DNA of 64,000 bases from Nocardiopsis terrae (GTDB lineage Bacteria > Actinomycetota > Actinomycetes > Streptosporangiales > Streptosporangiaceae), in the NCBI RefSeq assembly GCF_014651695.1, contig NZ_BMXJ01000003.1:461046-525045 (forward strand). Direction: 5' to 3'. Position 1 is the first letter of the stretch, and each line of letters starts with the position of its first letter. Position numbers and translations under genes: made by a program. The notes beneath the pieces were generated by a model, which saw nothing but the letters and a program-made list of their open reading frames with translations, did no database searches and was not told the DNA's origin. Shown one piece after another: positions 4,102-21,632 of this stretch.

Positions 4102-4734
4102 ATGGACGCACAGTTCTGGGACGACAGGTACGGCAGCCGCGCCCAGCTCTTCAGCGGTGACCCCAACGGCGTCCTCGTCACGGAGCTGGCCGACCTGCCG
4201 CCCGGGCAGGCCCTCGACGCGGGCTGCGGCGAGGGCGGCGACGCGCTGTGGCTGGCCCGCCGGGGCTGGCTGGTCACAGCCGTCGACCTCTCCCAGGTCG
4301 CCCTGGAACGCGCGGCCACCGCCGGAGCCGACGTCCAGGGACGGGTGTCGTGGAAACACGGCGACCTGACCATCACGCCTCCTCCGGCTGAGGCCTTCGA
4401 CCTGGTCTCGGTCCACTACTTCCCACTCCCGCGCCGGGCCGACCACTCCGCGCTGCGCGGCCTGCTCTCCGCAGTCGCTCCGGGCGGCACACTCCTTTTC
4501 GTCGGCCACGACATCACCGGCCTGCCCGAGCGTTTGGACGACGGCCACGTTCCCGCGGACTACTACCAGCCAGCCGAGGTCGCCGATCTCCTGGGCCCCG
4601 ACTGGGACATCTCCGTCAACGAGACCCGCCCGCGGGTCGTCCCCGCGCCGCCGGGTTCGCACCACACCCATGACACCGTCCTGCGGGCCCATCGCACACG
4701 GCGCCCCAGCCCCCTCCCCGACCAGGGCTGGTGA
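4102..4734 (+). CDS. Class I SAM-dependent methyltransferase
   Basis: 210 residues from ATG 4102, which has GAGGAGAC upstream. N-terminal FWDDRYG and motif I LDAGCGEGGDALWLA (about 39-53), then VDLSQVAL (motif II) and FDLVSVHYFPLP (motif IV), resemble the small TehB/thiopurine-type methyltransferases of actinomycetes. It should methylate a small molecule with SAM; the substrate is unknown. A longer frame opens at 4045 but has no ribosome site. Confidence 0.9.
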   Translation: MDAQFWDDRYGSRAQLFSGDPNGVLVTELADLPPGQALDAGCGEGGDALWLARRGWLVTAVDLSQVALERAATAGADVQGRVSWKHGDLTITPPPAEAFDLVSVHYFPLPRRADHSALRGLLSAVAPGGTLLFVGHDITGLPERLDDGHVPADYYQPAEVADLLGPDWDISVNETRPRVVPAPPGSHHTHDTVLRAHRTRRPSPLPDQGW

Positions 4735-4923
4735 CCCAGCGACGATCGGAGTAGCGTGGGAGGCGGCGCGGTCCCGCGCCCAACCTCCGGCTCCGGCGCC
4801 CACGCCGTCGGCCTCGCGGAGGCAAAGGGGACCCTGGAGTTCTCGGGACGCCGGTCTGACGTGTGGCCCTTCCGGCGGGGCGGCGGGAGCGTGGGGCTCG
4901 TCGCGGACCGCCGAGGAGCCGTC

Positions 4924-20618: not shown

Positions 20619-20718
20619 GATCGGTCTCTCTCCACAGTGAAATGTCCCCAACCGCCCCCTCTGGCGGCCAGCTCGGATACCTCATCGCGGGACACGAAAA
20701 AATCTATAGCGGCCACTG

Positions 20719-20747
20719 TAGACATCCCCATGGGGTGCTGTTAGATT
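20719..20747 (+). promoter_or_regulatory. Candidate sigma70-type promoter for structured RNA
   Basis: TAGACA (20719-20724), 17-bp spacer containing the palindrome CCCCATGGGG, then TAGATT (20742-20747). Transcription would start near 20754 and run into the tandem modules. It is in the most AT-rich part of the gap. Predicted by eye only. Confidence 0.45.
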
Positions 20748-20818
20748 TCCTGTCGTAGGAACAGAGATCCACCAGCATGACCACCGGATACGCCGGTGGG
20801 AGCAGGACAGAAGTACCG

Positions 20819-21046
20819 CAGGACCGGTCCTCCGCCCGCACGGGGAGGACCGTGCAACAAGGAAGAGAGCAGGACGGCTCGACCAGCGTGCACGTGCTTC
20901 AAGACGCTGGGGGCCGGTAGGACCGCAGTACGCATCACCGCAGGACGGAGTCCCGCCCGCACGGGGGACGCCGAGCAGGACGAAAGGCGCAGTAAGGCTT
21001 GACCGGCGCATGGTTGTAGGCGCCGGGGGCCGGTAGCACCGTAGTA
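20819..21046 (+). repeat. Two tandem RNA modules of about 116-121 bp
   Basis: Copy 1 is 20819-20930 and copy 2 is 20940-21046. Both start with GCAGGAC, carry the identical apical loop GCCCGCACGG on different stems, then AGCAGGACG, a C(T/C)(T/C)GACC box, a 7-bp stem, and finish with GGGCCGGTAG(G/C)ACCG(C/T)AGTA. The 7-bp stem differs at two base pairs, both compensated (A-U to G-C, U-A to C-G). Conserved loops on changed stems point to an RNA, not to a DNA or protein repeat. Confidence 0.75.
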
Positions 21047-21249
21047 GTGAGAAGTGCACGAACTGAGATCGAGAGGAGTAGTTGCCATCAGGATCGCCTG
21101 GGCGCGCGAGAACACAGCCCGGGTACCGCAGGCCCCGGTTCGGAAGAAGGTGGTCCACGGTCACACAACCGCGATCCCCGCTATCCCGTCCCAGCTTGAC
21201 CCCGGGAAGCGGAAGACCGGCAGCGGCCGGTAGGTGGTAATGAACTCTC

Positions 21250-21279
21250 GGGCCCCAGCGCCAAGCGGCGCTGGGGCCC
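21250..21279 (+). terminator. Strong hairpin ending the structured RNA
   Basis: Perfect 12-bp stem GGGCCCCAGCGC/GCGCTGGGGCCC with 6-nt loop CAAGCG, 33 bp before the TTG start of the MerR-like gene. It is either the terminator of the upstream RNA or an attenuator controlling read-through into the regulator gene. Confidence 0.7.
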
Positions 21280-21311
21280 TCGACGTGCGATCAGGAGAGA
21301 AAGAGAAACGC

Positions 21312-21632
21312 TTGTCCCGTCCCGCAACCGGTGACCAGTTCGACGATGACGACTACCCCGCCTACACGGTGGGCAACGCCGCGGAGATGCTCGGCACCAC
21401 GCCGGCGTTCCTGCGCGCACTGGGTGAGGCCCGGCTGATCGAGCCGCTGCGCTCGGAGGGCGGACACCGCCGTTACTCCCGCTACCAGCTCAGGATCGCC
21501 GCCCGGGCGCGTGAACTCGTGGACGAGGGCACCCAGATCGAGGCCGCGTGCAGGATCATCATCCTGGAGGACCAGCTGGAGGAGGCCAAGCGCATCAACG
21601 AGGAACTGCGCACCGCCGACCCGCCCGACTGA
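21312..21632 (+). CDS. MerR-like small HTH regulator
   Basis: 106 residues from TTG 21312 (AGGAGAGAAAGAG upstream). After an acidic start (QFDDDDY) comes a MerR winged helix: YTVGNAAEMLGTTPAFLRAL, GEARLIEPLRSEGGHRRYS, then a coiled-coil helix (AACRIIILEDQLEEAKRIN). There is no C-terminal sensor domain and no metal-binding Cys. ATG 21234 would put the strong hairpin inside the coding region and is unlikely. The gene directly follows the structured RNA, which may regulate it or be regulated by it. Confidence 0.88.
   Translation: MSRPATGDQFDDDDYPAYTVGNAAEMLGTTPAFLRALGEARLIEPLRSEGGHRRYSRYQLRIAARARELVDEGTQIEAACRIIILEDQLEEAKRINEELRTADPPD

Follow-up and report, generated by a model that had tools for sequence, protein, structure and literature searches.

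What is encoded in the 690-bp gap that, in Nocardiopsis terrae, separates a divergent NsdA-like gene from the gene of a 106-aa HspR-like regulator of the MerR family? The gap lies in the window, that is, the whole stretch of 64,000 nucleotides analyzed here, and an earlier note, made from sequence alone, had perceived in it a structured RNA under selection, perhaps an ornate non-coding RNA or a long leader of the MerR-like gene. Comparison with homologues gives the answer: a large folded RNA, in which repeated hairpins, variable in number, precede a constant domain at the end; data on the transcript are lacking.

Organization of the unit

Positions 20697–21311 of the window form a single unit, in which a conserved promoter is followed by a 5′ hairpin array, a constant 3′ domain of ~180 nt, a 13-bp hairpin, and then the HspR/MerR-like gene (Table 1). 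Read 5′ to 3′, the order is promoter with upstream element, two small hairpins, hairpins A, B, A and B, the 3′ domain, the 13-bp hairpin, the ribosome site and the gene. Because the gene product reaches only 45.9 bits, below the cut-off of 105 of NCBIfam NF047375, it is regarded as HspR-like and not as HspR.

Most of what the earlier note had described withstood comparison. Two tandem modules (20819–20930 and 20940–21046), their common loop GCCCGCACGG, a stem with compensated changes and the GGGCCGGTAG boxes are all present at the positions it gave, and the region is indeed gene-free, as no conserved gene lies within it. The shared apical loop is more precisely a bulged G, a C-G pair, a Y-R combination and a pentaloop NGNAC on a stem of ~9 bp (hairpin A), and the 7-bp stem forms the upper portion of hairpin B, whose stem of 12 bp is interrupted by a GA bulge of 2 nt. 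The promoter-like sequence, TAGACA-N17-TAGATT (20719–20747), is conserved in homologues, and the terminal hairpin was confirmed, with its length amended from 12 to 13 bp. The claim of a diverged third module at 21124–21242 failed: this segment belongs to the separate, far more conserved 3′ domain, whose last hairpin ends in the same CCGGTAG box as the array modules, its only likeness to a module.

Table 1. Features of the RNA unit and the adjoining gene, in window coordinates
Feature	Position	Strand	Evidence
Promoter region: upstream element AAATCTATAG, −35 TAGACA (20719–20724), 17-nt spacer, −10 TAGATT (20742–20747)	20697–20747	+	
Transcript start (inferred) and small 5′ hairpin CUGU/ACAG	20748–20764	+	Sequence; CTGTCGTAGCCACAG conserved in Nocardiopsis leaders
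5′ hairpin CCACCGG/CCGGTGG	20781–20799	+	
Hairpin A, copy 1: ~9-bp stem, bulged G, C-G, C-G, pentaloop CGCAC	20824–20853	+	
Hairpin B, copy 1: GGCTC / GA bulge / CCAGCGT ... ACGCTGG GGGCC, then GGTAG	20876–20920	+	
Hairpin A, copy 2	20945–20974	+	
Hairpin B, copy 2	20996–21036	+	
Constant 3′ domain: closing helix GAGAG/CTCTC, long helix TTGCCATC/GGTGGTAA, multibranch core	about 21071–21249	+	Identity, consensus fold, covariation, matches in other families
Terminal 13-bp GC hairpin, probable terminator; no U-run in this copy	21250–21279	+	
Shine-Dalgarno AGGAGAG of the MerR-like gene	21293–21299	+	Sequence
HspR-like MerR-family regulator gene, 106 aa, TTG start	21312–21632	+	Pfam MerR_1 E 6e-11; NCBIfam HspR 45.9 bits; downstream of nearly all RNA copies

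A folded and constant 3′ domain

The fold is established by comparison. In 38 Nocardiopsis copies, the 3′ domain has a mean column identity of 86%. A covariance model of the domain was built, as the earlier note had proposed for a check, and its idea of a structured RNA under selection is supported by real covariation among homologues, above that of all shuffles. In an alignment of 73 homologues, pairing holds in 92.6% of cells and double-sided changes occur at 19 of 49 pairs; none of 500 shuffles attains any of five measures, and sliding the partners along the alignment abolishes the signal. A second alignment, of RNA-selected copies, gave 91.1% paired cells and 21 pairs with double changes, again exceeding the shuffled and slid controls. 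Both alignments were fitted to the model and thus favor the structure, and the shuffles leave relatedness in place. A free MAFFT alignment shows the stem of the terminal hairpin to be rewritten in Streptomyces, with its pairing kept.

G.U cells are three times as frequent as A.C cells (357 versus 116), as is expected for an RNA of the plus strand, whereas folding the whole leader as a single sequence left the strands indistinguishable (z −2.9 versus −3.2). Within Nocardiopsis, identity is 89.1% in the 3′ domain; in the MerR gene it is 77.3% at third codon positions and 92.9% at the other two.

The hairpin array and its promoter

The variable array is likewise shown by comparison. Hairpin A occurs in 0 to 8 copies per Nocardiopsis leader, with 58 instances, 53 of them distinct, found by a search pattern that fixed the bulged G, the C-G pair and NGNAC but left the stems and the Y-R combination free. 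The latter is C-G in 34 instances, U-A in 22, U-G in 1 and C-A in 1. Among the 53 distinct copies, pairing of the arms reaches 90%, whereas dealing the arms out among copies gives 80% (at most 83%), and at stem positions 3–6 the values are 83% and 64%; moreover, the covariation score is 0.387 versus 0.201 in shuffles, with 0 of 500 shuffles as high. Since both the arm-dealing and the shuffle controls are exceeded, the pairing of hairpin A is not due to chance. Hairpin B, with 73 instances, keeps its GA bulge constant while its upper stem changes.

The array hairpins are joined by GCAGUA/GCAGGA linkers. GCAGUA is observed 142 times in Nocardiopsis (7.8 expected), 85 times in Streptomyces (4.6 expected) and 38 times elsewhere (3.3 expected), being abundant in all three groups although the array hairpins differ between them. 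In silico, these sites are barely more unpaired than the leader average (0.46 versus 0.39).

A motif of the form AAATCTGT-N9-GTAGACAT-N17-TAnnnT is common to 130 leaders from several families. Its strict form has only two matches in this genome, both at RNA copies, and wider use of the promoter motif in this genome was therefore rejected. The element AAATCTGT-N9-GTAGACAT (20697–20727 of the window) is kept across families.

Distribution of the RNA

The RNA occurs widely, in Nocardiopsis and Streptomyces as well as in their relatives. At least one copy is present in 33 of 40 Nocardiopsis genomes. With the covariance model of the 3′ domain, matches were obtained in 169 of the 300 genomes from the family and in 82 of the 395 from the class; they fall in at least five families, Streptomycetaceae among them. 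In the two families with the weakest scores, the matches are backed by an adjoining MerR gene (L201, L203). Several copies may occur per genome, and plasmids of Streptomyces and Embleya carry the RNA as well. The genome of the window has a second copy (L002 / G000:C1, about 474.9–475.0 kb), of which the module number is uncertain because a run of N falls within the repeat array.

At locus L199, two units lie divergently about 2.7 kb apart (1679–1867 on the minus strand and 4582–4770 on the plus strand); a recent inverted duplication is suggested by these back-to-back RNA-MerR units having equal RNA scores (83.5 bits). On a contig titled Glycomyces fuscus (L111), the RNA and MerR group with Nocardiopsis (213.9 bits), and the record looks misnamed.

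Linkage to the MerR gene and its exceptions

Comparison shows that the RNA and the MerR gene are neighbors with few exceptions, and yet separable in both directions. In nearly all copies, the RNA lies upstream of the gene on the same strand, the sense orientation and a nearly fixed distance to the ribosome site being found in 71 of 84 MerR-centered and 35 of 38 RNA-selected loci. As the terminal hairpin and the gene leave no room for a further promoter between them, the RNA is inferred from this layout to be also the leader of the MerR mRNA.

On the one side, 13 of the 84 MerR loci are without the full RNA. At L160, L165, L182 and L129 the RNA has been lost and its promoter now stands directly before the MerR gene, and at L120 and L156 remnants of the RNA remain there. 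At least six gains or losses are placed on the tree, which was built from few columns.

On the other side, RNA units exist without MerR, each with its own promoter and terminal hairpin: the first units of six tandems (L193–L198), the second unit of L193, and L200. A further such unit is a well-preserved 101-bit RNA at L142 (2358–2547), which precedes remnants of a MerR pseudogene. The terminal hairpin is 17–18 bp long in some MerR-less units. Decay is evident in some of these RNAs, namely the first unit of L195 (21 of 24 scorable pairs, 25 gaps), the first unit of L196 (34 of 44 pairs) and L226 (42 of 49), and because of this erosion the case for a role in trans is good but not closed.

The tandems L193–L198 are duplications of complete RNA units within one other family (f17). 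The first units of L194 and L198 end in a perfect 18-bp hairpin, and in L195 the hairpin is followed by a short T-run. In L226 (Nocardiopsis, G010), the decaying RNA is followed ~200 nt downstream by a gene resembling hexapeptide-repeat (Vat/CatB-like) acetyltransferases, as judged by eye from the translation.

Possible modes of action

The earlier note had left the choice between an ornate non-coding RNA and a long MerR leader, and there is evidence for both: the layout is that of a leader, yet the RNA is also found without a MerR gene. We propose that the unit is an undescribed RNA gene, acting at least partly as RNA itself and read through into MerR as its leader, a proposal as likely to prove right as wrong, in which the transcript ends and the read-through are inferred and expression data are missing. 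In this view, the RNA would work mainly in its own right; the conserved promoter would drive it and transcription would probably end at the 13-bp hairpin. The 5′ array, with its invariant bulges and loops, would serve as a multivalent platform for an RNA-binding protein, whose identity is a guess and for which there are no binding data, and the constant 3′ domain would be the fixed functional core. A part of the transcripts would continue past the hairpin into the HspR/MerR-like gene, making the RNA its mRNA leader. Against this reading stand the position of most copies just before MerR, enough for a role purely in cis, the decay of some MerR-less copies, the small difference in unpairedness between GCAGUA sites and the leader average, and the guessed partner and missing expression data already mentioned.

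A bolder form of the proposal, which we consider more apt to fail than to hold, is that actinomycetes possess a new class of large RNAs acting in trans, made of a constant folded domain and an evolvable array of protein-binding hairpins. Such an RNA would be a gene of its own, paired with a dedicated HspR-like regulator and present in several copies per genome, on plasmids too.

The strongest rival is a leader acting only in cis, as an attenuator or in the manner of a riboswitch, whose 3′ domain would sense a ligand, a protein or a cellular state and thereby control whether transcription stops at the hairpin or how accessible the ribosome site is. It is supported by the orientation and near-fixed distance at most loci, by the lack of space for another promoter, by MerR genes that have lost the RNA and often keep its promoter or remnants, and by the repeated gains or losses. 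Moreover, the HspR homologues SCO5917 and SCO4688 of S. coelicolor are translationally controlled in heat shock (PMC6009599), the presence of the RNA there not being established. Units without MerR speak against it, and expression platforms do not usually contain an array that varies and can number 8 hairpins. Neither the consensus fold nor leader folding revealed a conserved helix that would act as anti-terminator or sequester the SD; the terminal hairpin itself is conserved. We rate the pure leader, which is more likely wrong than right, below the RNA gene with partial read-through, for which the balance is level.

An RNA thermometer, in which heat would free the ribosome site of the HspR-like gene, is unlikely. 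In its favor, the gene product is HspR-like, translation of homologues is heat-induced (PMC6009599), and about a third of loci have cold-shock and DEAD-box neighbors. However, the SD accessibility predicted for nine leaders is nearly flat from 20 to 50 °C, in silico only, the 3′ domain is rich in stable GC helices, and units without MerR are left unexplained. Pairing of the SD sequence in the cold with release in the heat, the mark of a thermometer, is not borne out in silico, and this reading was rejected.

A repeat acting as DNA, selfish or as an element of recombination or replication, without any RNA, might account for several copies per genome and those on Streptomyces plasmids, but is most improbable in view of the G.U bias to one strand, the conserved promoter and the fixed orientation, and no transposase or target-site signature was seen. 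A short protein gene or uORF beginning at the ATG behind GAGAGGAG, to which this RBS-like sequence followed by ATG, GTG or TTG in most copies could point, can hardly be maintained, since L009 and L037 have lost the start, frameshifts through indels make the products diverge after ~8 residues, no codon-position signal exists, and the same bases are covered by helices with double changes. No conserved reading frame was found among the RNA copies compared; the non-coding nature of the RNA is thus shown by comparison.

Relation to known RNAs

The earlier note could place the RNA in no known family, and this held. At gathering thresholds, Rfam 15 gave 0 matches in the window, the best weak ones being chance-like; ten homologous loci yielded only the unrelated Scr6925, about 5.6 kb away, and the Streptomyces homologues likewise had no match in Rfam 15. 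A match to a known Rfam family, which it had named among the results that would refute its idea, was thus not encountered. Nor was a description of the RNA found in the literature searched, which comprised open-access papers without supplements. It is new by family, and by kind resembles large structured RNAs and leaders.

The sponge RNAs CsrB/RsmY similarly carry many repeated hairpins and short linker motifs per transcript, in numbers that vary between strains, and the feature of many hairpins with a shared loop is met here by hairpin A with its 0–8 copies, its loop being fixed by the search pattern. Unlike them, this RNA lacks GGA hairpin loops, its array loops being NGNAC, and has a large constant 3′ domain and a link to an HspR-like gene; binding of CsrA has not been shown. 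OLE, GOLLD, ROOL and raiA are also long, conserved and folded, with unknown or unusual functions, and OLE is tied to a neighboring gene, whereas this RNA matches no Rfam family and has its own modular array. The asfR motif of Streptomyces (PMC11109978) resembles it in being the 5′ leader of a gene for a DNA-binding regulator with repeated sequence in its stems, but this RNA is far larger, wider spread and found also without the gene; it is absent among the motifs named in the sections of that paper examined. With riboswitch or attenuator leaders it shares a conserved domain directly 5′ of a gene on the same strand; a ligand is hypothetical. The HspR repressor and its operons are approached by the HspR-like MerR protein, which differs in scoring below the HspR cut-off and in having its own promoter motif instead of a dnaK operon.

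Rfam thus lacks a conserved, covarying RNA that more than half of the genomes sampled in the family and a fifth of those in the class contain, many Streptomyces included. Biologists gain a new RNA gene whose function is still to be found. As the interchangeable hairpins share a fixed bulge and loop, a binding partner could be fished for directly, and its identification would give access to a new level of post-transcriptional control in the main producers of antibiotics.

The MerR-like protein and its neighborhood

MerR genes of this family are often located near cold-shock, DEAD-box helicase and SCO5918-family genes, both where the RNA is present (about a third of loci) and where it is absent; a tie of the RNA to stress or RNA metabolism is inferred. 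In S. coelicolor, the HspR homologues SCO5917 and SCO4688, for which presence of the RNA is not established, are heat-induced under translational control, SCO5917 showing the strongest translational heat induction of all genes (9.2-fold), and their roles are unknown (PMC6009599). Identifying what the RNA binds might explain such HspR-like regulators without a known role. Phages were without any relative of the MerR protein, and a phage origin was rejected. In the plasmids collection, relatives of this protein are encoded in 20 records of Rhodococcus plasmids.
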